IMG/VR virus record: IMGVR_UViG_3300009420_000077
Coordinates: 1-25,924 of that record
From: a virus
DNA length: 25,924 nt
Reading direction: 5' to 3' (one strand)
Part shown: piece after piece, positions 4,683 to 23,974 of the stretch
Position numbering within the stretch: the stretch's first letter is position 1
How the letters are laid out: each line of letters opens with the position of its first letter
Program-made: the position numbers and the translations under genes
Notes under the pieces: model-generated
Database searches by the model: none
The model's input: only the letters and a program-made list of their open reading frames with translations
What the model was told of the DNA's origin: nothing

Positions 4683-5180
4683 ATGAAATTAAATGAATTA
4701 ACAAAGCCTAACCAAGCAAAGACTAAGGACAAAAAGCCTAAGTTACAAAAACCAAGCAGAGGACATCAAAGTCCACATCCTATGCAAGGTAAACTTGTTG
4801 GAGAGTCTACTATAGAAGAAGCATATGGTAGTGGTAGTGAGATTACATTAGAAGATAATCAAGACTTTCATGAGGAATTTGGCGTAATAGGATATAGCGA
4901 ATGTGATGAAAATGTTTTTGAAGCAGAATATCAAGGACGTAAAGTTAAACTAAACAAGCCTATGCAAGGCGATTCTAAAAAGTTTAAAGTTTATGTTAAA
5001 GATCCTAAAACAGGCAATGTTAAAAAAGTTAATTTTGGACAAGGCGGTGATGCTAAAGGCGGCACAATGCGTATTAGAAAATCAAACCCCAAAGCTAGAA
5101 AAAGTTTCAGAGCAAGACATAATTGCGAGAACCCAGGACCAAAAACAAAAGCCAGATACTGGTCATGTAGGAAGTGGTAA
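4683..5180 (+). CDS. Basic Cys-containing hypothetical phage protein
   Basis: A 165-residue protein. The N-terminus MKLNELTKP matches the recurrent motif of this region and contains L-N-E at 3-5; a second possible protease site, I-E-E before Ala, lies at 44-46. Residues 10-30 are Lys/Pro-rich, the middle is acidic, and the last 60 residues are basic (KFKVYVKDPKTGNVKKVNFG, then RKSFRARHNC...YWSCRKW) with two cysteines near the end. From memory this C-terminal module recurs in T4-like marine phages (a DUF5872-like domain) without a known function. It is followed after one base by another basic protein; together they look like nucleic-acid-associated cargo, which is inference. Confidence 0.8.
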   Translation: MKLNELTKPNQAKTKDKKPKLQKPSRGHQSPHPMQGKLVGESTIEEAYGSGSEITLEDNQDFHEEFGVIGYSECDENVFEAEYQGRKVKLNKPMQGDSKKFKVYVKDPKTGNVKKVNFGQGGDAKGGTMRIRKSNPKARKSFRARHNCENPGPKTKARYWSCRKW

Positions 5181-5181
5181 T

Positions 5182-5463
5182 ATGAGACTAGAAGAAATAG
5201 CAAACGAAGAAATCTTTGAAGCCCGTATGGTATGGCGTAAAATGGGCAAATCGATTAAACGTGCTGTTAGGTGTACATCAGGTAGACGTAAAGGCAGAGT
5301 TGTATCTAAAGCAAGTCAATGTTCTGCACCTATTAACATGAAAAAGCGAATGACATTAAAACGTACAAAAGCAAAAATGGGTAAGAGACTTAGTAGAAAA
5401 GCACAAAGAACAAAAAGACTTAATCCAGCAAGTAGACGTTTAAGACAACTAAACAAAAGTTAG
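5182..5463 (+). CDS. Highly basic small protein, probable processed internal head protein
   Basis: A 93-residue protein, about one third Lys plus Arg. I chose the ATG at 5182 because it lies one base past the previous stop and opens with the recurrent MRLEEI motif; the frame extends upstream to 4993 but that part overlaps the previous gene. All acidic residues (E4, E5, E9, E10, E13) lie in the first 13 residues, and there is no Asp or Glu after I-F-E at 11-13. Removal of that leader by a gp21-like protease would leave a histone-like polycation with two cysteines (RCTSGRRKGR..., ...SQC), as expected for DNA-binding head contents. The family recurs in marine T4-like phages as far as I recall; function is unproven. 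Confidence 0.85.
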   Translation: MRLEEIANEEIFEARMVWRKMGKSIKRAVRCTSGRRKGRVVSKASQCSAPINMKKRMTLKRTKAKMGKRLSRKAQRTKRLNPASRRLRQLNKS

Positions 5464-5477
5464 GTAAGCGAAGATAA

Positions 5478-8400
5478 ATGAAATTTAAAGACGTTAGAAC
5501 ATTAGAAAGTATCTTAGTCGAGTATGGCATGAAGCAAGGTGCTAGTACACCTACATCTGACCAACAAACTGGTGCAACTGCAAAAGCAACAGCAACAGCA
5601 ACACCAACCGGAAGTCCGACTATTGAACCAACAGCACCTACACCAGACTTAGGCAGTCCTACTATAACAGGCATAGATGTCAAAGAGCCTGATCCAAAAG
5701 AACAACAACCAGCATTCAAAAAGATTAAAGCATTAGACTTGGATGATGGTACAGAATACAAAGATGATAAAGGTGAACTACAAGGTACAGTAATTAGTAA
5801 AGTAGGCAGAGGCCCAACACCAGACAAAGTAGTTGTTATGGACCCTAAAGGAGAATACAACATTGTAGATCCTGAACAAGAGGTACATATTGATTTAGAT
5901 GAAGGTGCTAGAGCAAAACAAGTTCACAAAAAAGCATTAAACAAAATTAAGCCAAAACACCGTTCACAAATGAAAAAAGTGAAACGTCTTGCAAGATTAA
6001 ATTTAAAAGAAGCAGATGAAAAATTATTTGAAGTAAACTTTAATAAAAAAACAGTCATAGAAGAAGCATTAGATTCACCTATTAGATGTGGATTTGAAGC
6101 AGAAACTCTTTGGTCCGATATAGAAGGGCAAAGTGATGACGTAGATAACTATTCAATCTCAGAGATTGATGATAATTTTGGTGGAGTAGATTGGGATAGT
6201 TTGTCAGAAGGATTTACTGACTGGATCTATGAAAATAAAATAGAAGAATACATGGACGATGCTGTTAGTGATTGGGTTGAAAGCAACAGAGACGATTACT
6301 ATCAAGAATTTGCAGAAGCAGAAAACATTGAAGAATATGATTGGGCCGATAAAAAGGAAGAAATACTCAGAGGTGAATTTGGCGATGAGCGATATGAAAA
6401 AGAACCAGAAGAATGTGAAGAAGAGTATGGATATGACGATGACAATTGGTTACGAGAATATATTGACCAAGAAAGAGAAAGTGATTTTGAATCATTCTTA
6501 GAGGACAGAGCAAAAGACGATGACTATGTAAAAGAAGCGGCATACGAACAAGCCAGTGAGTCATATGATTATGACGATTGGATAAATGATGCATGGTACA
6601 GCATGTCCAGTTTCTGTGAAGATTATGGTATTGAAATTTCCGGCGGATCAGACTTGCAAGAAGTTGCGAATATTATGGAAACATGGATTGAAACGGAAAG
6701 TGCATTTCATGACCACAGACCAGATACAGGCGGATATGGAGAGACATCCGGAGATGTAACAGAGTATGCTGTTGAAACAGATTCGAGTATAGATGGTAGT
6801 GGTACTGGTGCAGAAATTATCTCTCCTGTATTTACTAAACCTAGAAACATGCTAAATGAATTGAATAAGTTCTTTGATATGGTACATGATAAAGGTGGTT
6901 CAACAAATAGAAGTACTGGACTGCATGTTACTATGAGTTGGGACGGTGAAAGAAACGGCTTACCAAGTGCCGCAGAACCAATGAAAGCCAAGATGGCATT
7001 ATTGCTAGGTGACAAATACTTATTACAAGCATTTAACAGAGATGGTAATAGTTATGCTAAAAGTCAATATGACAACTTAAAAAAAGCCACAGAAAAATTA
7101 AAACAGAACATGAACGACCAGGCTAGTTTTGAACAACTAGAAGCCACATTAAACGATGCAATCAGTAACGACAAATTCCAAGCAATACATTTTAAATCTC
7201 AGAAAGATAGTCAAACAGGAACTAATCTTATAGAGTTTAGAATAGGCGGCGGTGAAGATTATCATTTAAATTTTCCAAAAGTTTCCAAGGCTGTTATACG
7301 ATATGCTACCAGCATGAGAGCAGGGTATGATGAAAGTTCTTTTAAAGAGGATTACATCAAAGCGGCATTCAAACTAATTAACAAATTAGACGATATTAGC
7401 GATAGAGATAAAGAAAGAGTAAAAAACAGAGAAGATGAAGGTGTGTCCCAAGAAGACATAATGGTTATAGATGCAGTTAAAACTATAGTTAGTGCAGACA
7501 ACTATGTAGAAACAGTAACCAGAATGGCAAATGTCTCCAGTGCATTACAAGAATGGCAAAAATTAAGTTTTAAGAATGCTGATACTAATTGGAAGGCTAA
7601 ATGGCAGAAATTTTTATCAGACACAGGCAAAGCACCAGCAGACTATGGCGATGCCGAGTTTGCAAAACTGATAAGCGAAGCACCTGAAACGTTTGGCAAA
7701 CCTATGAGAGGTTATGTACAACCCCATCTTAAACCACCAAGTATCAGAGCTGTTAAAGAAAAAGAAGAAGCAATGGATAGGTTAGGAGTTGTATTAGGAC
7801 AACTAAGTAATGATTTAATAACTGGTACTTCTAGAGCAAAATCTAATGCTAAAACAATAGGCTCATTTAGAAATTTCTTTAAAAGGTATGAGATTACATA
7901 CGAAGAGATAGCAGAAAAAGTAGTAGACCATTCCGGAGCAATCAACATGACCGGCGAATCTATAACTGCTAGAAAACGAATAACATCAATTAAACAAGGA
8001 CTAGAACAGTTACTTAAAAAAGATATAATCACTCTTCCAGAGTTTTTAAAGAACCAAGACACAGAAGTATTGGTTAATGCAATATGGGGTATGTTTAATG
8101 CAGACGTTGATATCAACAAAGACATAGACAACTTAATTAATGCTATATCTAAAATGCGTCCAGACATGAACAGATTAGATATCGAGAGTGTTATTAATGC
8201 AAGTAAAAGCAAAAGAGAATTTAACGATTTTTATAGTTCATTATTAAAAGGTAATTATCATAACAATGCGGCTCCTTTTGAAAACGGCATACAGTACAAT
8301 CCAGAAGGTTATAAGGAAGCACTAAAAATTGCTAGTAAATATCCTGAATATGACGAACCTGTTAGTACGTTTTATAATCAAAACATATACAGTGATGACA

Positions 8401-11400
8401 GTTACGAAGATAATTTCCTAAGCAAGTATATGATGAAACTGAGACAGAGATTACAGACTTTGGATGATTTGAAAGACGAGAACACAGAGTTGTATTTAAA
8501 AACAACAAAGTCTATGTCAAAACCACTAGAAGCATACTTAAAGTCAGTTAAAAGCAATGCAGAGTTAGAGAAAGACTATGAAGGCGAGGTCACAGACAGA
8601 TACTCAGATTATGCCATTGACAAATTTGTCAAAGGTAGTGAAAAGATTATAGCTGGTATTAAATCTGGATCTGGCGAAGATACTGATGGTAGATCTTTTG
8701 GAAATGCAAGTACGCATGTTGTTACAGACTATATAAGAAACGTTTTAATGAATCATTATAGAGCAATACAAGAAAAAGACCCAGAGCAGAAGAAGGCATG
8801 GGCGGAGAAAGGCAACGTTCTTGATAAGAAAGCCTTTCTACAATTAAAATTATTAATGGAATCTTGGGATAAGATTATTACTAAAACATTAAACTATCCA
8901 TCACAGCAGGCAACCATTGACCACAAGCAACAGGTTATACAAAAAAGAGATGACTTTAAAAATCAGAGAGCAGAAAAACCAGCCGCAAGTGTAAATGTTC
9001 CTTTTTATAGTAATGTGTACATAACGCAAAGCCAATGGGTAGACATAAAATCATCTAACGTAGATGAGATTAATCCATACGTTCAAAAAGATGTAATACT
9101 TGGCGCTCGTAACGTTAATAGTAATCAGAAAAGTTTTTTTGTAGTACCAGCAGTACATTATTCACAATGTGAAGATGCTCTCAATGGTTCGAGTATTGTT
9201 AATGTTCAAATGAAGGCAGGTAATGATAGTCAAGCATGGAGACTGCCTAAATATAAAGCAACACTAAAAGCATTCTATAAGATATATGGCGTGAGCTATC
9301 AGGATTTGATAGATAAAGCAAATTATAAAGAACTTGATGGCGAAGACAGAGGTAAAATATCAAAACTATTTAAAATAGAATTTACCAAGGATGGTGACGG
9401 CAGAGAAGGGCAAGGAGACTTTGACACACTTATTCCTAAAGACGAAATGCAAAATCCTAAAAGTGGAGAACCTTTAAGTAGTAGTGCTAGAACTATGTGG
9501 ACAATGAACACTGGTGACTCCGCTATAAAACAATTTGATGCGTATGATTGGACACAGCGTACTCCAGAATTTAAAGCCCAAGTATATAAACTAGTTTCTA
9601 ATGGCGAAACTTTTAATAGAGCATTTGAAACAGTACAGGATCTTAAAAACCGACAAGAAGATACAGTCACCAATGACCTTTTACGAGTTGCCGGAGTATC
9701 TGGCGATAACTACAGAGAAGACTCCTCCGCCGCAATAGCAAGAGATACAGATTGGACCGAATTAGCTCAGCACTTACTAGGGGAACCAGGTGCAAATGAG
9801 CAAAGTTCTAATTTGCTTAGAAATATTTTCGACAGTTTAAATGATGACTATACGAAATACAGAATGACAGATGATAGACCAATAGTAGGCATGGATAGAT
9901 ATCTATTAGCAGTTAGAGATGCAAAGACGCACATAGAAACAAATTATACATTAACAGATGGTAACTATGTTGCAAATAACAGTGACGTTAGCGGTAGTTA
10001 CGATACATCTCCTACAAGAGGCAGAGATCCAGAACAAGAACCAGAACAATCTATAGCAGATGCAAGAGACTTTTATCCAGCATTTGATAATATGATGCGT
10101 GATGGCATGCAAAACTTTATGCGAAGCGGTAAACCGGTAAATGATCTTGTTGGGTTTTTAACTAACAGTGGTAATACATCTGCTATGAAAGATGCGGTGT
10201 TGCAGGCTATACAATTTAACAAAGAAGGCGGCGGCGTACCATTAGATTATGATTCAGCATTGACATTAGGAAGTAACCGAATTGCAGTTGCTAACGAAAG
10301 TGTGTTTAACAAGTTCGATGCATTACCATTACAAGAACAATTAGACATATTGAATAAGTCCAAAATTTTAGAAGGTAAAACAACACTTAATCCTCCAAGT
10401 ATAGACGTAGGCGATGAAGTTAAAGTAGGTAAGTTTAAAAATAGCAAAGCCACAGTAAAAGGTTTTACTACAGATAAAAACGGACAACCTGTGTTAAAAA
10501 CTAATAAAGGCGATAAGCCATTGTACAAGCCACGTGTTAGTAAATTAGAACCTAAAACTGTTAAAGAAAGTGTACCAGTTATTAAAACAATAAAGATTTT
10601 AAATGACTTGTTAGCAGACCATTTTCCAGTAGGTGACCTTAAGAAACAAATGTTAGCCTTCCAGGCTATACCTATTCCTTCTATGCTAGACCAATTTAGA
10701 GAATTAAGAGCAGAAGCAGGTGACGATGCCTGTGCTAGAGGCATAGTAAGATATTACACAACTGCTTTACCAAAAGAACAACAAGACCAAATTGATTTAC
10801 GAGAGTGGACTAAAAGTAAAATTAACAGTTTAGTAGAATCCAAAGGTATAATGGGCAGAGTACTAGGAGATAGATTTCAAAAGGGTGATGATGTTTTAGA
10901 GTTTCAAAGTGTTAATTTATACCCCACAGAACAAATGGAGTTTGAATCACCTGAGCAACGAGATGATTTAATACAACAATTAGAACAAGAATTAAATAGT
11001 CAAATAGAATGGACAAATGTTCCTAACAGAGGCAGTTTATCTTTTGGTATTGCTGTATTTACAGATCCAGAATTAGATGACAAACTAACGTATTGGGGAA
11101 GATACTTTAAGCAAAAAACAGTAGATATGATGGGTAAGTGGAGCAATAGTCAAGTACCTCAAGGTTGGAAATTACAGACTGCTGGGGCAATGAAACTAGA
11201 TATAGGCATTGATCCACAGCACTTGATTAAGACAGATGCACCCTTTAACGGGGTCTTAGAAGTCATACAAGCAGTGAAAAGCAATTCCGCCGGTAATGAG
11301 CTATCCGAATCCTTAGTAAACGCACTAGAGACTATACATACACAGGAACATCCTGTGTTCCCAGGACAAATAACAAATTTACCAGCATTAAGAGATTACT

Positions 11401-12164
11401 TTGGTGAGATAATGGGCCCAGTAGCACTTATGAGTGAAATGGTAGGCGGACAGGCAGATGCCGCCAAAGCAGATTTATTAAAAGGATTATCTTGGTCAGA
11501 ATGTAGTATATTTTGGCCCATGGCAATGAATGCCCCACTAGTTGACAGTTACTTTACAGCACCAGACGGTACTAGAGTAGGTATTAGTAGTAAGGGTGGT
11601 AAAGGTGCAAAAGCCAGTGTTAAAAACATACAAGATGCAATATTAAAAGCACCAGATGAAATGAAAGCACAATATCAAACAACAGTGAAAGTTGTAGACA
11701 TAGTTCAAAGCAATAGTGCTAAAGACGGACCAATTAGATTAGCAGAATTATATAGAATATTGCCACAAGGTTTAGAACAAGAAATTAATGGTTATATTCA
11801 AGCAGGTAAACAAGACTATGCTGGACTAAGTCCTGCATGTACAGAATTATTTAATTACGGCACACCAAGACAGGATGTTCCAGGCTTTAACACAGGATAT
11901 GCTATGCTGGCTCTACTTGCTAAAAAAGTTACAAGAGCAATCAACACAGCAGGTCCAGAGTTTGGACAAGGTTGTGTAGCATTCCTTAACCAATCAAGCA
12001 TTGTACAGTTATATTGTAAGATGGGTAAAAATGGACAAGATGCTAGAGTAACAGGATGGGAGGCTGTATATCCGCCAAACTTCCAAGGTACAGTAGAAAT
12101 AGACGGCAGTAAAAATTATTACAGTTCAAGAATTGGCGGCAAATTTGCATTTGGATTTAAGTAA
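5478..12164 (+). CDS. Giant 2228-residue phage protein with amidoligase-like domain
   Basis: One uninterrupted frame of 2228 residues, about a quarter of the window. Residues 1-16 (MKFKDVRTLESILVEY) fit the capsid-targeting-like pattern with an L-V-E site at 13-15. A Thr/Pro/Ala linker (21-65) and a KOW-like module (about 88-140) follow. Residues 201-615 carry the signature order of amidoligase enzymes of the glutamine-synthetase fold (COOH-NH2 ligases): GFEAE (205-209), ETDSSID (433-439), EIISP (446-450), GLHVTMSWD (481-489) and LIEFRIGGG (584-592). Between the first two motifs is an insertion with about 58 acidic and 12 basic residues in 221-375. A second KOW-like segment lies at about 1640-1690. 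The C-terminal 250 residues include a D...GISSKGGKGA patch (2023-2044) that may be a separate, nuclease-like domain (weak). No membrane segment is seen. It overlaps the ParB-like gene by one base. It is probably an injected or internal virion protein; the substrate is unknown. Confidence 0.85.
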   Translation: MKFKDVRTLESILVEYGMKQGASTPTSDQQTGATAKATATATPTGSPTIEPTAPTPDLGSPTITGIDVKEPDPKEQQPAFKKIKALDLDDGTEYKDDKGELQGTVISKVGRGPTPDKVVVMDPKGEYNIVDPEQEVHIDLDEGARAKQVHKKALNKIKPKHRSQMKKVKRLARLNLKEADEKLFEVNFNKKTVIEEALDSPIRCGFEAETLWSDIEGQSDDVDNYSISEIDDNFGGVDWDSLSEGFTDWIYENKIEEYMDDAVSDWVESNRDDYYQEFAEAENIEEYDWADKKEEILRGEFGDERYEKEPEECEEEYGYDDDNWLREYIDQERESDFESFLEDRAKDDDYVKEAAYEQASESYDYDDWINDAWYSMSSFCEDYGIEISGGSDLQEVANIMETWIETESAFHDHRPDTGGYGETSGDVTEYAVETDSSIDGSGTGAEIISPVFTKPRNMLNELNKFFDMVHDKGGSTNRSTGLHVTMSWDGERNGLPSAAEPMKAKMALLLGDKYLLQAFNRDGNSYAKSQYDNLKKATEKLKQNMNDQASFEQLEATLNDAISNDKFQAIHFKSQKDSQTGTNLIEFRIGGGEDYHLNFPKVSKAVIRYATSMRAGYDESSFKEDYIKAAFKLINKLDDISDRDKERVKNREDEGVSQEDIMVIDAVKTIVSADNYVETVTRMANVSSALQEWQKLSFKNADTNWKAKWQKFLSDTGKAPADYGDAEFAKLISEAPETFGKPMRGYVQPHLKPPSIRAVKEKEEAMDRLGVVLGQLSNDLITGTSRAKSNAKTIGSFRNFFKRYEITYEEIAEKVVDHSGAINMTGESITARKRITSIKQGLEQLLKKDIITLPEFLKNQDTEVLVNAIWGMFNADVDINKDIDNLINAISKMRPDMNRLDIESVINASKSKREFNDFYSSLLKGNYHNNAAPFENGIQYNPEGYKEALKIASKYPEYDEPVSTFYNQNIYSDDSYEDNFLSKYMMKLRQRLQTLDDLKDENTELYLKTTKSMSKPLEAYLKSVKSNAELEKDYEGEVTDRYSDYAIDKFVKGSEKIIAGIKSGSGEDTDGRSFGNASTHVVTDYIRNVLMNHYRAIQEKDPEQKKAWAEKGNVLDKKAFLQLKLLMESWDKIITKTLNYPSQQATIDHKQQVIQKRDDFKNQRAEKPAASVNVPFYSNVYITQSQWVDIKSSNVDEINPYVQKDVILGARNVNSNQKSFFVVPAVHYSQCEDALNGSSIVNVQMKAGNDSQAWRLPKYKATLKAFYKIYGVSYQDLIDKANYKELDGEDRGKISKLFKIEFTKDGDGREGQGDFDTLIPKDEMQNPKSGEPLSSSARTMWTMNTGDSAIKQFDAYDWTQRTPEFKAQVYKLVSNGETFNRAFETVQDLKNRQEDTVTNDLLRVAGVSGDNYREDSSAAIARDTDWTELAQHLLGEPGANEQSSNLLRNIFDSLNDDYTKYRMTDDRPIVGMDRYLLAVRDAKTHIETNYTLTDGNYVANNSDVSGSYDTSPTRGRDPEQEPEQSIADARDFYPAFDNMMRDGMQNFMRSGKPVNDLVGFLTNSGNTSAMKDAVLQAIQFNKEGGGVPLDYDSALTLGSNRIAVANESVFNKFDALPLQEQLDILNKSKILEGKTTLNPPSIDVGDEVKVGKFKNSKATVKGFTTDKNGQPVLKTNKGDKPLYKPRVSKLEPKTVKESVPVIKTIKILNDLLADHFPVGDLKKQMLAFQAIPIPSMLDQFRELRAEAGDDACARGIVRYYTTALPKEQQDQIDLREWTKSKINSLVESKGIMGRVLGDRFQKGDDVLEFQSVNLYPTEQMEFESPEQRDDLIQQLEQELNSQIEWTNVPNRGSLSFGIAVFTDPELDDKLTYWGRYFKQKTVDMMGKWSNSQVPQGWKLQTAGAMKLDIGIDPQHLIKTDAPFNGVLEVIQAVKSNSAGNELSESLVNALETIHTQEHPVFPGQITNLPALRDYFGEIMGPVALMSEMVGGQADAAKADLLKGLSWSECSIFWPMAMNAPLVDSYFTAPDGTRVGISSKGGKGAKASVKNIQDAILKAPDEMKAQYQTTVKVVDIVQSNSAKDGPIRLAELYRILPQGLEQEINGYIQAGKQDYAGLSPACTELFNYGTPRQDVPGFNTGYAMLALLAKKVTRAINTAGPEFGQGCVAFLNQSSIVQLYCKMGKNGQDARVTGWEAVYPPNFQGTVEIDGSKNYYSSRIGGKFAFGFK

Positions 12165-12592
12165 TGAGATTACTTGAATTAGAAATACAACGTCCTAAAC
12201 TGGACAAAGAGTTTCCTAGAAACATAATGCCACAAGTTAGAAAAGGCGACCTAGACGATTCTCCGTTTGAATACAACAAAGAAGAAGTTAAATTAGATAC
12301 ACTTAAACCAGTACAACGACAACGTGTTGCCGGAATGCATGATAAGGCAAAACGTGGATTTGCAGATGGCACGATACGTCCTATCATAGTAGACAAAGAT
12401 AACTATATTGTAAATGGTCATCATAGATATGACATTGCACTTAGTCAAGGATTACCTAGAACAACAGTACTCAAGGTAGATGCTACTATAGAAGACCTCA
12501 TAGACCATTACAGTAATAAAGCAGATGACAGTCCTACGTTTGAGCAAAAGTTTAAACAAGCGATGGATAAAAATGCTAACACTAATAAATAA
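12164..12592 (+). CDS. ParB/sulfiredoxin-like domain protein
   Basis: A 142-residue protein. Residues 71-96 contain IRPIIVDKDNYIVNGHHRYD, the conserved core of the ParB/Srx fold, with GHHR (85-88) where ParB proteins bind nucleotide and related phage proteins have nuclease activity. Flanking helices agree with a single-domain phage ParB-like protein; there is no helix-turn-helix half as in chromosomal ParB, so a partition role is unlikely. Its N-terminus MRLLEL (L-L-E at 3-5) fits the recurrent leader pattern. The ATG shares a base with the stop of the giant gene (TAATG) and the 3' end overlaps the oxygenase gene by 20 bases, so the cluster is probably made together. Which activity (CTPase, nuclease or kinase-like) it has cannot be told from sequence. 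Confidence 0.85.
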   Translation: MRLLELEIQRPKLDKEFPRNIMPQVRKGDLDDSPFEYNKEEVKLDTLKPVQRQRVAGMHDKAKRGFADGTIRPIIVDKDNYIVNGHHRYDIALSQGLPRTTVLKVDATIEDLIDHYSNKADDSPTFEQKFKQAMDKNANTNK

Positions 12593-13130
12593 AGATTTTC
12601 CTATCTGGGAAGTCAGCGATTTCGAAGTTCCTAATTTTAATTATATACTTTCTAATCCAAACAACTATACACAACTTGGATACGATAATGGTGGATTAAG
12701 GCAATCTATAAAAACACCAAAAGAAGTAGATTTTGCATGGCATAAAAGTTGTCTGCCTATACAAGAAATGCTCAGGACTTGTGATGAATTAGTGTTACAA
12801 CAAATGTGGTGTGGTAAACTTAAAAGTTTCGAATGGCCCGACCCAGAACATAATAGTGTAGATGTATTGTTAGACAAACCAGATTTTATGATGCCACCAC
12901 ACGTAGACAACAGAGTCGTGCTAGGTGTAATAATTATAAACTTACAAGACAATCCTGAGAACTCTGGGACATACTTTGATCAATTAGATTACAGAGGCCC
13001 CACACAAAAAGGAACTGGTATTTTTATGCTTAATCATATCAACACATTGCATTCTGTAAATCAACCTGGACCAACGGATAGACTAATTGGTTATCAAACA
13101 CTAGTAATTAATCAGATACAAGTAATATGA
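12573..13130 (+). CDS. 2-oxoglutarate/Fe(II)-dependent oxygenase-like protein
   Basis: A 185-residue protein using the ATG at 12573; an upstream ATG at 12525 in the same frame would add 16 residues that sit wholly within the ParB-like gene, so I prefer the shorter form. It shows the facial triad of the double-stranded beta-helix oxygenases: H110-x-D112 (MMPPHVDNR) and H160 (TLHSVN), with R170 (TDRLIGYQ) placed to hold 2-oxoglutarate. The length and the W/G-rich beta pattern fit phage prolyl-hydroxylase-like enzymes, which hydroxylate peptides or nucleobases. It overlaps the radical SAM gene by four bases (ATGA). The substrate is unknown; tight linkage to radical SAM and amidoligase genes points to modification of a protein or nucleic acid. 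Confidence 0.85.
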   Translation: MLTLINKDFPIWEVSDFEVPNFNYILSNPNNYTQLGYDNGGLRQSIKTPKEVDFAWHKSCLPIQEMLRTCDELVLQQMWCGKLKSFEWPDPEHNSVDVLLDKPDFMMPPHVDNRVVLGVIIINLQDNPENSGTYFDQLDYRGPTQKGTGIFMLNHINTLHSVNQPGPTDRLIGYQTLVINQIQVI

Positions 13131-14404
13131 TTAGTGATAAACTTGTAGCAGTAGATTTAGAAATTGCTAGTACATGTAATGCCGCATGTCCTGTATGCGT
13201 TAGGCGTACAAGAGGCGTATTAAATAATTTTACACAGCAAATGCGAACTCTAGCAGATGTTAAGCAAATTTTTGAGGGATTATCCGGACAAATAAATTCT
13301 TTAACATTATGTGGCAATTTAGGCGACCCAATGACCTGTGCAGAAATAGTTCCTATATGCGAATGGTTTACAGAACAAAATCCAAACGTATTCATTAGTA
13401 TTTCAACTAACGGTGGAATAGGGACACCAGCACAATATAAAGCATTGGCAAAATTAGGAATTCAGCTGATATTTGGTGTTGATGGAAATTCAGAAGAAAT
13501 ACTTAAACTGCACAGAGTAAATGTTTCTTACAAAAAAGTTTTAGCAAACATGAATGCATACATAAACAATTATGACATAGACGACCATAATGGATTCAGT
13601 CATAATCTTACATGGCAATATATTTTGTTTGAGCAAAACAAGACAGATTTACTGCCAGCACTACTTACAGCAAAACAACTTGGCTTTAGACAATTTCAAA
13701 TTAGAGAACCTAACGGTTTTGCCGGCAACCCTGATAATGCAATCCCTACCTATGATTTTTATACATCAGAGTTTACACATTGGCTAACTCCAGTTACCGA
13801 TGATTTTACACAAGACATCTACCATTGGTGGCAAATACAAGATGATGACTCCTACAACAAAATATTTGATATACTTAGTAATATAAATCCTGCTATAGAT
13901 AAAAACGGCCCAATGTGGAATGGCGCAAAATGGCACAAGCCAGTTGCAGATGAAATTGTTTATACCTCTGAATATTCGGGTACAGAAAAATTTGTTGTGG
14001 ATATACCACACTATATGACAAGTCAACTAGACACTTACCAATCACAGACATGTTACAGTCTAAATTATGAAGACAACAGCAATTTAAAAAAAGATGCATT
14101 GAATGTTTTTATTAGTCATGACAATTATGTGTACCCATGCTGTATAGTTGGTGGCGCTGTTACATCTGCTAAAACTAAGTTAGGTTATAATAACAACGAA
14201 CATATTAGAGAGTTACTCAACAACATAAGTTCATATGGATTAGAATCATTTAGTTTAGCAAACACTAATTTAAAAGAGATATTAAATACTGGTGTATTAC
14301 ATACAACATATTATGATGATATACGGAATGGTAATGCGAGTACCTTCTGTAAGTTGTCTTGTGGTAAATGTTCGGATACAAAGAAAGCATACAACCCTTT
14401 TTAA
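13127..14404 (+). CDS. Radical SAM enzyme with C-terminal auxiliary cysteines
   Basis: A 425-residue protein. C17-x3-C21-x2-C24 (CNAACPVC) is the radical SAM [4Fe-4S] motif; LCGNLGDP (about 64-71) and ISISTNGG (about 88-95) are the SAM-binding strands of the TIM barrel. The C-terminal third has paired cysteines after a YVYP strand (YVYPCCIVGG) and C408-x3-C412-x2-C415, which look like ligands for an auxiliary cluster of the SPASM/twitch type found in peptide-modifying maturases. Its ATG overlaps the oxygenase stop (ATGA). Radical chemistry on a peptide or sugar is likely, but no substrate can be named. Codon use looks like that of its neighbours, giving no sign of recent transfer. Confidence 0.9.
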   Translation: MISDKLVAVDLEIASTCNAACPVCVRRTRGVLNNFTQQMRTLADVKQIFEGLSGQINSLTLCGNLGDPMTCAEIVPICEWFTEQNPNVFISISTNGGIGTPAQYKALAKLGIQLIFGVDGNSEEILKLHRVNVSYKKVLANMNAYINNYDIDDHNGFSHNLTWQYILFEQNKTDLLPALLTAKQLGFRQFQIREPNGFAGNPDNAIPTYDFYTSEFTHWLTPVTDDFTQDIYHWWQIQDDDSYNKIFDILSNINPAIDKNGPMWNGAKWHKPVADEIVYTSEYSGTEKFVVDIPHYMTSQLDTYQSQTCYSLNYEDNSNLKKDALNVFISHDNYVYPCCIVGGAVTSAKTKLGYNNNEHIRELLNNISSYGLESFSLANTNLKEILNTGVLHTTYYDDIRNGNASTFCKLSCGKCSDTKKAYNPF

Positions 14405-14423: not shown

Positions 14424-15731
14424 ATGCAAATAGCAAACATTACAAACCCATTCTATAAATTTATAAAGACATGTAATGAAACATGGATAGATATAGATAA
14501 CATACCTAGAACCAGTAAAGACCATATATTTGGTACATGCACATTCTTTGACGAATACTGGAAAGACGAAAATGAGTTAAATAATGAGATACCAACAATA
14601 TTTATTATTAGTATAGATGGCATAGGTAGTAGAGAACTATATAAGATTTGGGAAAAGTATCATTTAACTAATACAACTTTAATTCCAGACTTTATTGCAA
14701 AACACAAAAATCCTATAATACTATTTGACAATAGTGCTGAAGGGCATTGTGATGAAGATATGCTAAAATTTATTTCACAAGTAGTGGATATGTATAAGTT
14801 AAATCCTAATACAACATTCTACGGCAATAGTGCAATAAACATTAAAGAAATACACCAACGCACAGAGTATACAAACTTTAGAACACTATACACAGCAAAC
14901 TTCCAAGAAGATACAATGTCAGAGTTATATGAACAATTGAGCAACTTAGAAGTTGCTTATGAAGGTAAAGGGAAACTTTACAGTTGCTTAAATAATGCGC
15001 CTAAGCCACACAGGGCATTGCTACTTGGAGCATTAGACATAGGCAACAATATGGTTAGTACACCTAGTGTAGATTTTCAAGAGCTACAATCACAAACAAT
15101 TAAATATTTAATCGACCAATCAGAACGCCAACAAATATCTGCAGAAGATGTTAATGATGGTATATCCTACTTAAAAGACTTGCAGTTAATATATCCGTTA
15201 GAGTTAGACAAACGTAACGATGACATTATACACATGAAACAACTATCCGCTGATAACAGTTTTATCTCAGACTTGTTAGATTGTGACTTACAGTTAATTA
15301 CAGAAACATTTAGTGATAACACACTTGTTATTACAGAAAAAATTTACAAAGCAATTATTATGAAACAACCTTTTATAATATTTGGACCACATCGAATATA
15401 CAAATTCCTACAGTCTAAAGGTTATAAAACATTTGAACATTTGATTACTACTAATACTTGGAAAGGGTCTAGTAATTACGACTCTACAACAAATATTATT
15501 ACTAAGATAAAGTTTTTAATACAGCAATTAGAAACATTGTCTATGTTAAAAGAGAACCCAATTAAGTGGCAAGAGATAGAACAGCAAAACAAATTAGATG
15601 CAGAGCATAATTTTGACCTATTTACACACAACATGCACTCTATTAGAGAATCGTCTACACAAGGATTAGACGCTTGGCTATCTAATTATGAAGATTTTAA
15701 CTTGCTGTTTAATGTAGACTTAGATAAATAG
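14424..15731 (+). CDS. Glycosyltransferase-like hypothetical protein
   Basis: A 435-residue protein. The N-terminal half is alpha/beta (IFIISIDG, PIILFDNSAEGH) without a firm match. Residues 292-337 (ITETFSDN, then VITEKIYKAIIMKQPFIIFG, ending with GYKTF) resemble the C-terminal donor-binding region of GT-B type sugar transferases such as family 10 fucosyltransferases, where an E-K pair and a Pro-Phe-hydrophobic-Gly strand are conserved. Many phage and capsule loci carry proteins with this tail. The catalytic assignment is uncertain. The gene follows the radical SAM gene with its own late promoter, and its stop codon is part of the promoter core of the next gene. Modification of a virion protein, DNA or host glycan would be compatible. 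Confidence 0.75.
   Translation: MQIANITNPFYKFIKTCNETWIDIDNIPRTSKDHIFGTCTFFDEYWKDENELNNEIPTIFIISIDGIGSRELYKIWEKYHLTNTTLIPDFIAKHKNPIILFDNSAEGHCDEDMLKFISQVVDMYKLNPNTTFYGNSAINIKEIHQRTEYTNFRTLYTANFQEDTMSELYEQLSNLEVAYEGKGKLYSCLNNAPKPHRALLLGALDIGNNMVSTPSVDFQELQSQTIKYLIDQSERQQISAEDVNDGISYLKDLQLIYPLELDKRNDDIIHMKQLSADNSFISDLLDCDLQLITETFSDNTLVITEKIYKAIIMKQPFIIFGPHRIYKFLQSKGYKTFEHLITTNTWKGSSNYDSTTNIITKIKFLIQQLETLSMLKENPIKWQEIEQQNKLDAEHNFDLFTHNMHSIRESSTQGLDAWLSNYEDFNLLFNVDLDK
15723..15730 (+). promoter_or_regulatory. T4-type late promoter core GATAAATA
   Basis: The last Asp-Lys-stop codons of the upstream gene (GATAAATAG) form this core. The expected start is at 15736, exactly the A of the next ATG, so a leaderless mRNA is predicted. 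Confidence 0.65.
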
Positions 15732-19510: not shown

Positions 19511-20188
19511 ATGTTACTAACAGAAAAGATTGAATATAAGAAATTAGAACGAGTTACAACTGCAGAAGGCAGAAAGTATATCGGTGATGACAATATACCA
19601 GTGCCAAGTGTAACAACAGTATTAGACAAAACATCTGATAAGACTGCTCTTATTGCCTGGCGTAAAAGAGTTGGCGATGCTGAAGCAACACGAGTAAGTA
19701 CTGAAGCGGCTGGTTTAGGTACTAAAGTTCACAATGCATTAGAGCAATATATACTTGGTGAAGATTATGAAATCAAAGGTAATAACTTTGTAAGCATACT
19801 TGCAAGGGATATGACAAACTTAATGATTAATGAGGGTTTTAGTAGTGTAGATGAAGTTTGGGGAACAGAAATTGGACTTATTGCTCCTGGACTATATGCT
19901 GGTACAACAGATTGTGTTGGAATGCATGGCGGCGAAGAAGCAATAATTGACTTCAAGACAAGTAAAAAAATTAAGCCTACTAAATGGGTACAAGATTATT
20001 TTTTACAATGTTGTGCTTATGCAATGGCACATAATGAAATGTACGGAACAAATATTCGAAAAGGTGTAATACTAATGGTTAGTCGAGATGTTGAACTCAA
20101 AGAGTACGTTATTGAAGGTGAAGAGTTTGACAAGTATTGTGGATTATGGACTAGCAGGTTAGAAGAGTATTATAGCAAATTCGGATGA
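19511..20188 (+). CDS. PD-(D/E)XK exonuclease, RecB/Cas4-like
   Basis: A 225-residue protein. GTKVHNALEQY (70-80) is the N-terminal RecB-like nuclease motif, with H74 and E78; E120 follows in WGTEIG. GTTD (D134) and IIDFKTSKK (D147, K149) form the catalytic PD-(D/E)XK core, and Q166-x3-Y170 (LQCCAYA) is the QxxxY motif of RecB/Cas4/lambda-exonuclease-like enzymes. The size fits single-domain phage exonucleases in DNA degradation or recombination. No iron-sulfur cysteine set of the Cas4 type is present. It overlaps the reductase gene by four bases (ATGA). The ATG at 19511 has only a weak purine-rich ribosome site (GAGGATAATGG). Confidence 0.9.
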   Translation: MLLTEKIEYKKLERVTTAEGRKYIGDDNIPVPSVTTVLDKTSDKTALIAWRKRVGDAEATRVSTEAAGLGTKVHNALEQYILGEDYEIKGNNFVSILARDMTNLMINEGFSSVDEVWGTEIGLIAPGLYAGTTDCVGMHGGEEAIIDFKTSKKIKPTKWVQDYFLQCCAYAMAHNEMYGTNIRKGVILMVSRDVELKEYVIEGEEFDKYCGLWTSRLEEYYSKFG

Positions 20189-21234
20189 TATCAAAACAGG
20201 TTAGATTACTTAATGCTGTACAAGGCAAGATTAAAGTAGAAGACTTTGAAATTGTAGATGTAGAAATACCTGAATTAGAGTCAGGTGAAGTATTAGTAGA
20301 AAATGCCTATTGCAGTACAGATCCATATATTAGACCTTCGATGGGAATTACTGGAGATGTATTCCACACAAAACCAGGCGAACCTATAACAGGCGATGCA
20401 GTAGGAACTGTTATTGCTAGTAAGAATGACGATGTCCCAATCGGCACAAATGTATTACATAGAAGAGGTTGGCGTACACATTCTATTTTATCAAATACAA
20501 AATCGTCGACATCAGTAAATACTGGATTATCAAACGAAGACCTAGTTTCAATTATACCTGATAATAAAAAGTTATTAGATTATCTTTCTATGAATGGCTT
20601 AGTTGGTGTAACAGCATATTACTCATTGAAGAAAGTATTAAATCCACAACCAGGTGACATAGTTGCTATAGATGGTGCGACAGGTGGAGTTGGACAAATG
20701 TTTATTCAAATGGCAGTAGCATCTGGTATCGAAGTTTATGGCATTACTTCCACTCAAGAAAAGGTAGATTACATAAATCGTATAGGCGGTATAGGAGTAC
20801 TAGTACCAGCACAAGGCGGACTAGCAAAAATACACAAAGTTTATAATGCTACTTTCCCTAATGGTATAGACAAGTACCATGCAAATGTGTGTACCGAAAG
20901 AATGTTGCTAGGACTAGCAAAATTAAATCCACAGGCACATCTAATACTTTGTGGTGCTATGAAAACCTATAACTCCAGCATTAACGTTTTAGGTCCTAAC
21001 ATACAACCACTAATTCATAAAGGCGGAACCATTCACGGTTGTGCATGGGTGTTCTCTATAGATGAATGGAGACAAGAATACTTAGATTTTATTGAGACAC
21101 ACTATGAAAAACTAGCACCTCAGTATGAAATATATCACGGTATTGAGTCTATGCCACAGCAATTTGTAGACCAATTCTTTATATATGAGCAAGATTCTAA
21201 TAAAAAGTTCGGAAAGCTCGTTACCCAACTATAA
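20185..21234 (+). CDS. MDR-family NADPH-dependent enone reductase (PTGR1/CurA-like)
   Basis: A 349-residue protein, full length for the family. STDPYIR (44-50), GLVGVTAYYSL (138-148) and IDGATGGVGQM (162-172, the nucleotide-binding GxxGxVG turn) match the zinc-independent PTGR1/leukotriene-B4-dehydrogenase/curcumin-reductase branch of medium-chain dehydrogenases; the zinc-binding cysteines of true alcohol dehydrogenases are absent. Such enzymes reduce alpha,beta-unsaturated carbonyls with NADPH. It is coupled to the exonuclease by an ATGA overlap. This is an unusual gene for a phage and reads as an auxiliary metabolic gene, perhaps for detoxifying lipid-derived aldehydes or altering host redox metabolism (inference). 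Codon use is phage-like, so any transfer is not recent. Confidence 0.9.
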   Translation: MISKQVRLLNAVQGKIKVEDFEIVDVEIPELESGEVLVENAYCSTDPYIRPSMGITGDVFHTKPGEPITGDAVGTVIASKNDDVPIGTNVLHRRGWRTHSILSNTKSSTSVNTGLSNEDLVSIIPDNKKLLDYLSMNGLVGVTAYYSLKKVLNPQPGDIVAIDGATGGVGQMFIQMAVASGIEVYGITSTQEKVDYINRIGGIGVLVPAQGGLAKIHKVYNATFPNGIDKYHANVCTERMLLGLAKLNPQAHLILCGAMKTYNSSINVLGPNIQPLIHKGGTIHGCAWVFSIDEWRQEYLDFIETHYEKLAPQYEIYHGIESMPQQFVDQFFIYEQDSNKKFGKLVTQL

Positions 21235-21298: not shown

Positions 21299-23974
21299 GT
21301 GTCACACCAAGACGATGCAAATTTAAAAGTTATTATAAGCAGGATTCAGCAAAGAAGAGGTCTGAAGCAAGATTTACCACATCCATTAAGACCTGGTGAA
21401 ATTGGATTCGCTACGGACAGTAAGCAAGTATATATTGGAGCGGATACCGCCGACAATATCAGCAAGACTTATAATAAAACAGTTTACCTTGAGAATACAT
21501 TAGGTGCTCAGGCTACAACTTTAAATATTGCAAACACTCAAATTATTAAATTTGAAGTTCCTCACATTAGATTTGGAAAAAATAGTTCGTTCGACGGTGT
21601 TAGTAAATCAGCATCATGGGTGGCAAACTTATCAAGTACATATAACCTTTCAGACAATAGCAATGTAGCAAGAACGGTATTTGATACTACAGTGGCTAAT
21701 TCAGCCAATGCTGTAGTTAATCAAAACCAAACTGCTAATGCCTTTGATGCAGATGACGTAACAGTTTTAATTGATGGTAAGAAACAAGTAGGCGACAGTA
21801 GTGGTACTGGCGGTACTGTTAATGCTTCTTACGATTACAATTTTGTAAGTGGTAACGCTTCAGGCGACAGCCACACAATTTATTTCAGAACAGCACCTAC
21901 TAATTCACAAGAAGTAGCAGTTTCATATTATGGCAACAGTCATGTTAATCATGCTATTGCAAATAGTGTTATTGCCAATGGAGCCGCAGTAACTGGTTTC
22001 CATACACAAATGAGTATACCGGAATATAGGCAACTTAATTCAGAATTGGTGCTTGTTAATCCAGATTCAGGAACAGGCTTTATTGGTTTAGAAACTAAGC
22101 ACATAGATGTTGTCCAAGAAGGTAGTGGTATAGCCAATGTAGCATCAGTAACTTTAGGTAATATAGTTGCAGTTAAAGATCCTATTGATCCTTCATTATA
22201 TTCAACAGATCCAGCAAATGCTAGTTTACAGATATACAGTGGAATTAGTAATGTAAGTTCTATTAAAAGTGGAACGGTACATGGCGGAGAATTAAATACA
22301 TTTGATATGGGTGCCGATAGTGTAGCATTTACTAAGTATGAAAATGCAAGTGGTGGTTATAATGGTTATGTTTGGTTAGAAGGACAAACAGGCACATCAT
22401 CAGCAGGTAACACTACAATAGAAACGCAACATTACTTTCACCAAAAATTATTACCTATACAAGCAAATAGTGTTGGAACATCATTTACTGTTGAAACTCC
22501 AGCAAACGTATTCCAAACTGCAAGAGCAGTTACAACAACCCAAACTGGTGCAGGAGCAAAAACTGTTACTGGTAATGTAGAAGGTTTAGCAATTGGAGAT
22601 AAAGTAACATTCGTTGGTAGTAATGCAACAGAATTTACAAATGCTCCATATTCTGTATTAGGCGTTAATACTGGTGCAGGCACATTCTCAGTTACAGAAA
22701 CTTTAACAGGTGCAGTTAGCACTGGATTAGATTATATTAACCATGGTGACAATGTAGCCAATGTACAAGTATTCAGTTTAAGTCATGGCATGCCAGCAAC
22801 ATCAAATGTTGTATTTAATGTAGCAGTTGGCGGTGTAAGTGCAAACACTGAAGTTGAAACAGTACATGGAAGAACAGGACAAGATGAATATGTTAGTACA
22901 ACAACTAATACGTTCTTTGTTAGTGCGGCAAGTGTGGCATCAAATGTTACAGGTAATGTAAGTCCGTTTATAACAAACTTATCAGACGCAGATGGTTTAA
23001 GTATTAAACCAGGTTACTTACTTGACTTATCAGGTACAAGCTCACTTAATGGTGCAATAGCATTAGTAAATGGCAAACAACAATGGATAAGATTAAGTTT
23101 AATACCTAACATTAATGACCAAATATATACATATAGCACAGACCAAACGCAGTACAGATTATTTGATGATCCAAAAAATAATGTAAACTCTTGGACAGCA
23201 TTAGGTCTTTCAGAAGGACACTTTACTAGAAAAGATAATACTATTAAATCCAAGTTAGAGCAATGGTTTAAAAATCACGATGGACTAGGAAGTTCAGGCA
23301 TATTAGGTGATGAGAAAGTGAACATTGTTTCAAATGTATTCATTAACCAGCCTTATAGCACAGAAGCATTTGGTTCATGGTTAGTTGACATAGATACAAC
23401 TAATGGCGAAATAGACTTTAACAGTAATGACGAAGCAGGACATTTTGCAGAGATTGTAAACAAGTTATACTTTAATACATCTAATGCAGACAAACGTGGA
23501 CTTACAACTGTTAAAACAAACATAGAATTATTAACAACAGCCGCTCAAGAAAGCGGACAATCAGTTAGTACATTTACACAGCCACAGCAATTAACAATTG
23601 GCACAGGTAATGTATCACTAACTAACCTAGGCACAGACTCAACAATATACGATACATTATTTGTTGATTATTCATTAGTAGGTACAACACTAGATCCTAG
23701 TAATGCAAATGTTTCTAGATACTACAATAGAGTAGGCACACTTATGTACAGTGGTAATCCAAGTGCTGATGTACAAGCAAATGGTGTTGCTAATGGTGTT
23801 GTAACAATTAACGATATTTCTACAGAAAATAAAGATGCTAACATTACAGGTAATTTATCATTCTCAGCCAGCATGGCTAATGGTACTATTGCTATTGGAT
23901 GTAACAACGACTTAACACCTACAACTAGTAATGTTGTGATGAAGTATGTTGTTAGAAGATGGAAGTCACAGTAA
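21299..23974 (+). CDS. Large fibre/baseplate-type virion structural protein
   Basis: An 891-residue protein with a GTG start and a good ribosome binding site (CGGAG). Residues 12-52 (ISRIQQRRGLKQDLP, then RPGEIGFATDSKQVYIGADT) are the short N-terminal module found on many phage fibres and Mtd-like receptor-binding proteins. The rest is Asn/Ser/Thr/Val/Gly-rich with few cysteines, typical of long beta-structured fibres, and includes repetitive TGNV and ANSV type strands. A stretch at about 655-700 (NHDGLGSSGI and neighbours) is more globular. The C-terminus ends in a basic strand (VVMKYVVRRWKSQ). Two late promoters precede it. Its exact place (tail fibre or baseplate wedge) is not determined. 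Confidence 0.85.
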   Translation: MSHQDDANLKVIISRIQQRRGLKQDLPHPLRPGEIGFATDSKQVYIGADTADNISKTYNKTVYLENTLGAQATTLNIANTQIIKFEVPHIRFGKNSSFDGVSKSASWVANLSSTYNLSDNSNVARTVFDTTVANSANAVVNQNQTANAFDADDVTVLIDGKKQVGDSSGTGGTVNASYDYNFVSGNASGDSHTIYFRTAPTNSQEVAVSYYGNSHVNHAIANSVIANGAAVTGFHTQMSIPEYRQLNSELVLVNPDSGTGFIGLETKHIDVVQEGSGIANVASVTLGNIVAVKDPIDPSLYSTDPANASLQIYSGISNVSSIKSGTVHGGELNTFDMGADSVAFTKYENASGGYNGYVWLEGQTGTSSAGNTTIETQHYFHQKLLPIQANSVGTSFTVETPANVFQTARAVTTTQTGAGAKTVTGNVEGLAIGDKVTFVGSNATEFTNAPYSVLGVNTGAGTFSVTETLTGAVSTGLDYINHGDNVANVQVFSLSHGMPATSNVVFNVAVGGVSANTEVETVHGRTGQDEYVSTTTNTFFVSAASVASNVTGNVSPFITNLSDADGLSIKPGYLLDLSGTSSLNGAIALVNGKQQWIRLSLIPNINDQIYTYSTDQTQYRLFDDPKNNVNSWTALGLSEGHFTRKDNTIKSKLEQWFKNHDGLGSSGILGDEKVNIVSNVFINQPYSTEAFGSWLVDIDTTNGEIDFNSNDEAGHFAEIVNKLYFNTSNADKRGLTTVKTNIELLTTAAQESGQSVSTFTQPQQLTIGTGNVSLTNLGTDSTIYDTLFVDYSLVGTTLDPSNANVSRYYNRVGTLMYSGNPSADVQANGVANGVVTINDISTENKDANITGNLSFSASMANGTIAIGCNNDLTPTTSNVVMKYVVRRWKSQ

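Follow-up and report, generated by a model that had tools for sequence, protein, structure and literature searches.

The virus record IMGVR_UViG_3300009420_000077 (IMG/VR; positions 1–25,924, the whole of which is referred to below as the window) raises the question of what a phage could do with a single protein of 2228 residues, described in an initial annotation as built around an amidoligase-like domain, equipped with KOW-like modules, and probably injected. The answer that we favor, with moderate confidence, is that this protein is a head-packaged, protease-processed, and probably injected multi-enzyme polyprotein of T4-like marine phages, organized in the manner of a polymorphic toxin.

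The open reading frame (ORF) for the giant protein (5478–12164, + strand) is uninterrupted over its 2228 codons and encodes a polypeptide of 250.5 kDa with an isoelectric point of 4.9. Full-length homologues are present on separate contigs, among them L003 (2352 residues, 53% overall identity to the window protein) and L004 (2120 residues, 48%). A scan with the alignment of the ligase domain revealed relatives on 106 contigs of uncultured phages, 80 of which were kept; the complete proteins among the latter comprise roughly 1,550–2,470 residues, and with a later find, L179 (1,459 residues), the usual range of the relatives becomes 1,450–2,470 residues. These contigs are of marine type, and the window virus appears to be a marine T4-like phage. 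The members follow a common plan, in which an N-terminal leader is followed by the amidoligase, a long middle region, a conserved hinge, and a C-terminal module belonging to one of three unrelated families. The middle region (residues 659–1640; 7453–10397, +) is moderately conserved, and ten homologues scanned against Pfam showed no family above the cut-off in it.

The ordered motifs GFEAE (residues 205–209), SSID (436–439), EIISP (446–450), GLHV (481–484), and EFR (586–588), pointed out initially, lie in a domain spanning residues 183–658 (6024–7452, +), the invariant residues of which are E207, E209, D435, E446, N477, H483, R521, E586, and R588. Conservation was scored in 36 non-redundant homologues (<90% identity), and the alignment of the domain comprised 44 sequences. 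Residues E207, E209, D435, E446, H483, E586, F587, and R588 are 100% conserved in the former set and invariant in the latter as well, so the motifs cannot be ascribed to chance and the active-site residues are kept. On the basis of their order and strand position, we take the ExE, D, E, H, and ExR elements to correspond to the metal and ATP sites of glutamine synthetase (GS).

The AlphaFold2 model of residues 183–658, calculated from the 44-sequence alignment, has a mean predicted local distance difference test (pLDDT) score of 88.6. When this model was compared with the PDB using VIA-align, all 50 of the 50 matches listed were glutamine synthetases or members of the GS family, such as GmaS (Z 10.3–11.7), with ~200 residues superposed at 3.4–4.9 Å in most of them, and the top matches among viral predicted structures were mostly annotated amidoligases. 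The Amidoligase_2 family (PF12224) was matched by 18 of the 44 homologous domains, at best with 1.4e-7; the window protein alone stays below Pfam detection for that family, and searches of PDB sequences with the amidoligase profile gave no credible match. A weak match to LPD3, a domain of polyvalent proteins, in two of the 44 domains (0.0038) was not used as evidence. The GS fold of the domain, as modeled, can be regarded as secure, and its placement in the amidoligase branch is borne out by the predicted structure, by the acidic ExE/D/E residues conserved throughout the homologues, and by the PF12224 matches of the relatives.

The closest cultured relative is AUZ94978 of Agrobacterium phage Atu_ph07 (26% identity over 217 residues, E 5e-9), which itself matches Amidoligase_2 at 5.2e-7 (30.2 bits, with a cut-off of 22) as well as the PHROG families named ‘amidoligase enzyme’. 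A tblastn search of cultured phages with the whole protein found a relative of the ligase only in Atu_ph07. Matches to cyanophages, obtained with another query, proved in the two records inspected to represent the short linker cassette KYKKSIDCNNPKGFSQKAHCAGKKKK, or a similar one, and not the amidoligase domain. No amidoligase relatives were found in 84,980 bacterial and archaeal species genomes, within the limits set by the two short patterns taken from the domain alignment. Like Amidoligase_2, the domain has the GS fold and the elements ExE, D, E, H, and ExR in this order, but a long insert, helical in structure, separates its first ExE strand from the D/E motifs. Amidoligases of phages have been recorded before (PHROGs, UniProt); among the phage matches listed, most are a few hundred residues long and the longest one named as an amidoligase has 1071, whereas the proteins described here usually combine 1,450–2,470 residues with a leader, a hinge, and an exchangeable tail. 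It is this architecture that is new, as far as our searches reach. While the presence of the domain proposed initially is thus confirmed, it is not an invariable core of the family, since no amidoligase was detected in L106, L159, and L167, which consist of a leader, hinge, and tail.

The initial account of the architecture left out the C-terminal third of the protein and with it what we regard as the most telling feature, an exchangeable, probable nuclease that stands behind a conserved candidate cleavage site. The signature is clearest in family I of the tails, in which only G158, E161, L164, D179, E189, and K191 are invariant in 22 sequences (mean column identity 20%). Their spacing, E-x17-D-x9-E-x-K, is that of a textbook PD-(D/E)XK enzyme, and the strict pattern is present in 35 of the 45 unique members, with most others being near variants; by this signature, family I tails are almost certainly nucleases. 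Some of them (L069, L084, and L095) are longer than the rest. In family III, D250 and S271-x-K273 are invariant in five aligned members. The window protein carries a tail of family II (residues 1788–2228, 441 residues, 48.4 kDa; 10839–12161, +), in which E1977 is followed by D2023-x13-S2037-S2038-K2039, an arrangement that even L179 and L186, two distant members, retain. In a model of mediocre quality (pLDDT 71), the glutamate is located in a helix, and the aspartate and the SSK segment at two adjacent strands. Searches of PDB sequences with the profiles of families I, II, and III gave no credible match. Judging by these residues and the model, the tail of the window protein is a probable PD-(D/E)XK-like nuclease. 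Residues 99–196 of the same model, just past E1787, resemble domain I of EF-P and CarD-type structures (Z ≤3.7), lending weak support to the KOW-like modules of the initial annotation, for which Pfam gave no KOW match.

The type of tail is distributed over the amidoligase tree no differently from chance, changing 13 times among 42 domains compared with a mean of 13.3 for shuffled labels (on a quickly built tree with some open forks); tails have been exchanged between lineages. Closely related ligase domains are followed by a family III tail in L078, a family I tail in L084, and none in L065, and L154 and L182 likewise consist of a leader, ligase, and hinge with no tail. Immediately downstream, the gene for a ParB-like protein of 142 residues (12164–12592, +; leader MRLLEL) begins with an ATG that overlaps the last base of the TAA stop codon of the giant gene, an arrangement suggestive of translational coupling. 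The coupled gene belongs mostly to one family whatever the tail type, and for this reason its identification as a tail-specific immunity gene was rejected. The ParB-like family phrog_2859, found in this gene, also turned up in two family I tails when 22 of these were scanned.

A hinge module of ~72 residues, present in almost all members, follows the middle region (residues 1690–1775 in the window protein; 10545–10802, +). It normally precedes the tail, whereas the tail of family III mostly lies before it. Between the hinge and the family II tail, the sequence SLVE-SKGIMGR includes a glutamate, E1787, that is invariant in 19 of 19 aligned sequences, and E1787|S1788 (10836–10841, +) is a candidate site at which a prohead protease could free the tail. 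The family II tail exists also as a separate protein of 448–449 residues with its own leader, MRAKEFLSE (L107) or MRAKEFIIE (the L110 group), which runs into SKGIMGR or AKGMFGR at the point that corresponds exactly to SLVE|SKGIMGR of the giant protein. We propose that the protease frees the tail here because the end of the standalone leader coincides with the invariant E1787, and not because of an LxE motif alone. E1697 (VKE-SVP), which precedes the hinge module, is another candidate site. In proteins unrelated to one another, a recurrent cassette, GHQSPHPMQGKLVGE-S or GHQSKHPYQGRLVGE-G, stands before candidate cleavage sites (residues 27–42 of the product of 4683–5180 in the window, and upstream of the hinge in L096), and a second cassette, KYKKSINCSNPKGFSQKAHCAGKKKK, is common to these phages and cultured cyanophages.

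At its N terminus, the giant protein carries the leader MKFKDVRTLESILVE (residues 1–15; 5478–5522, +), which resembles the capsid-targeting sequence of T4 and ends at a candidate prohead-protease site, E15|Y16. The start MKFKDVRTLESILVE|YGM is common to the family, E15 being present in 36 of 36 non-redundant homologues and Y16 in 97% of them. Scored as the pattern M[KRQ]xx[DE][LIVFM], with internal methionines as the control, such leaders are found at seven of the 22 ORF starts of the window and at none of 154 internal methionines, and at 42 of 157 non-redundant neighbors of giant genes compared with six of 663 internal methionines. In loci with only a standalone tail, one of 17 ORFs has the pattern, and a start of this type is also seen in the standalone tail itself. 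Internal proteins IPII and IPIII of T4 start with MKTYQEFIAE|A and IPI with MKTFKEFTSTTTPVSTITE|A, a plan that the marine leader shares; their cut positions are those that we take to be generally accepted for T4. In the marine leader (MKxxDh/MKxxEh), the acidic position comes one residue earlier than in MKTYQEF, and the leader is often longer overall. The gp21-type prohead protease (PF03420) and Gp23 (PF07068) were identified in the 250- and 340-kb contigs, the largest of those with relatives; this evidence comes from the contigs of relatives, the window record being itself a 25.9-kb fragment outside that search. The ten N-terminal residues of IPIII are enough for packaging in T4, where gp21 cleaves after glutamate (PMC9026906); EcoRI and staphylococcal nuclease are among the fused nucleases that have been packaged and delivered (PMC9026906; PMC3012670). 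From the enrichment of the leader, its likeness to those of the T4 internal proteins, the literature on T4 packaging, and the presence of PF03420 and PF07068 in the contigs of relatives we infer that the giant protein is packaged into the capsid, for which the argument is strong but indirect. The initial suggestion that the protein is injected gains independent support from the T4-like leader common to neighboring genes, as well as from the protease and Gp23, with injection itself remaining a probable further step.

Several observations weigh against the proposal of a packaged, cleaved effector with a nuclease tail. Scans of the window protein against Pfam and PHROGs gave nothing usable. The prohead protease was found in two of 11 linked contigs; the others may be fragments. 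LxE or IxE motifs are frequent, with 28 such sites in the giant protein, so the motif alone proves nothing. The active site of family II is an SxK variant and not the canonical D/ExK, its best nuclease matches are HincII entries at Z ≤3.2 and an rmsd (root-mean-square deviation) of ~8 Å, and hhalign comparisons of tail families I, II, and III detected no profile-profile homology. The departure from D/ExK, the weak similarity to HincII, and the missing sequence link to family I give some room to the idea that the tail in the window protein has a different enzymatic activity or is a structural domain. Such an identity, which would concern the tail only and would be compatible with a packaged effector, is quite possible but on balance doubtful, because family II occupies the same position as the family I nucleases and keeps, even in distant members, the helical glutamate followed by D-x13-S-S-K over two adjacent strands.

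A different role for the whole protein would be that of a polyprotein of the head core or scaffold, in which the amidoligase would work inside the prohead, for instance attaching amines or peptides to proteins of the capsid or to internal proteins, the C-terminal modules would serve DNA packaging or maturation, and nothing would be injected as an effector. T4 core proteins use the same logic of leader and cleavage site (PMC9026906), the giant protein is very large, and its gene sits among other leader-bearing genes; ATP would, in addition, be present before the head is sealed. Parts needed for assembly are normally conserved, yet here the tails are exchanged at random and missing from L065 and L154, the amidoligase itself can be lacking, and in T4 the internal proteins that carry leaders of this kind are dispensable and leave the head by ejection (PMC9026906), all of which makes this role unlikely. 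Less probable still is that the leader serves some other purpose, as an N-terminal feature common to the family, the protein acting only late and inside the producing cell, since the indirectness of the case for packaging and the departures of the marine leader from that of T4 in acidic position and length are outweighed by the strong restriction of the pattern to N termini, the invariance of E15, and the like leaders of standalone tails that end at the same glutamate.

Under the preferred reading, that of a packaged and probably injected polyprotein, the leader would direct the giant protein to the prohead core, where a gp21-type protease would cut after E15, probably after E1787, and perhaps after E1697. 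The mature head would then hold a ligase piece of ~190–200 kDa and a tail of ~48 kDa, which would enter the cell together with the DNA at infection. There the ligase, using ATP and metal ions, could form an amide bond on a carboxyl group of the host (or of the phage), in either a protein or a small molecule, and the tail could cut DNA. The packaged genome might be spared through exclusion of metal from the head, DNA modification, or inactivity of the nuclease before cleavage; packaged staphylococcal nuclease in T4 is silent until its metal arrives (PMC3012670). Lineages would swap the payload tails and keep the delivery and ligase parts, with the capsid serving as the delivery device. The more specific picture of a capsid-delivered polymorphic effector system, in which the GS-fold ligase modifies host proteins and swappable nuclease tails attack the DNA of the host or of rivals, is tentative, and we lean slightly toward doubting it.

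The closest described kinds of proteins are the T4 internal proteins, polymorphic toxins, and polyvalent proteins. With IPI–III and Alt of T4, the giant family shares the short N-terminal leader ending in a glutamate cleavage site and the use of one type of leader for a variable set of proteins. However, the T4 internal proteins are small, Alt is an ADP-ribosyltransferase, and none joins a GS-fold ligase to a nuclease tail; for the giant protein, packaging is predicted. Polymorphic toxins likewise have an N-terminal trafficking part, a long middle, a release site, and a variable C-terminal nuclease, that is, a constant N-terminal part with exchangeable C-terminal domains (the present tails being putative toxins), but in the giant family the delivery device would be the phage capsid, and no cognate tail-specific immunity gene was found beside the giant gene. 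Polyvalent proteins of phages and conjugative elements are also giant, multidomain, and thought to be packaged and injected, and ParB-like domains are found here in some tails and in the downstream gene. The paper describing them makes no mention of amidoligases, places them outside the polymorphic-toxin plan, and finds their ParB-like DNases unaccompanied by other DNases (PMC5512222), whereas the giant amidoligase family does follow that plan.

No description of this giant-protein family was found in the open-access literature, and the data suggest a modular enzyme-delivery system not previously described in the literature and libraries searched. To our knowledge, nearly all internal proteins of phages described so far come from a handful of coliphages and giant phages. 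Widespread, uncultured T4-like phages of marine type seem to pack very large multi-enzyme proteins with freely exchanged enzymatic tails. If so, the polymorphic-toxin principle would extend to delivery by capsids, phage amidoligases would gain an informative context, and the leader would serve as a simple sequence rule by which the proteins packaged in the heads of these phages could be listed. Exchangeable nucleases also raise the question of how a DNA-cutting enzyme and the phage genome share one capsid.

Among the neighboring genes of the window, a basic protein just upstream (5368–5463, +; leader MRLEEIANEEIFE-ARMVWRKMG) is in the frame of ORF 4993–5463; these coordinates cover its C-terminal part only, and comparison with L003 and L004 places its start near 5230. 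A DUF6267 protein (899–2176, +; phrog_455) with the leader MKFQEFTKPLVTRLLTE belongs to the same operon as the giant gene, and its KWDG motif recalls motif I of nucleotidyltransferases and ligases. A radical SAM protein (13127–14404; PF04055, 6.2e-11) is encoded just downstream of the giant gene, followed by an ORF of 435 residues (14424–15731) that is conserved in relatives. Further on are a phage exonuclease (19511–20188; phrog_298, 7e-56), which shares 62% identity with the corresponding L004 protein, and a zinc-type alcohol-dehydrogenase-like oxidoreductase (20185–21234; PF16884, PF00107), with similar ORFs in L004 and L006. The GTG-start ORF of 891 residues at 21299–23974 includes the N-terminal domain of the Major tropism determinant (PF18454) and likely encodes a receptor-binding or fiber protein. 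A PADLOC scan of the window gave nothing usable. In two relatives, L029 (5527–12738) and L031 (5518–12933), the giant protein combines its nuclease tail with a domain of the Cu/Zn superoxide dismutase family (PF00080, 2.4e-44), which suggests that these phages may carry a head-packaged superoxide dismutase.

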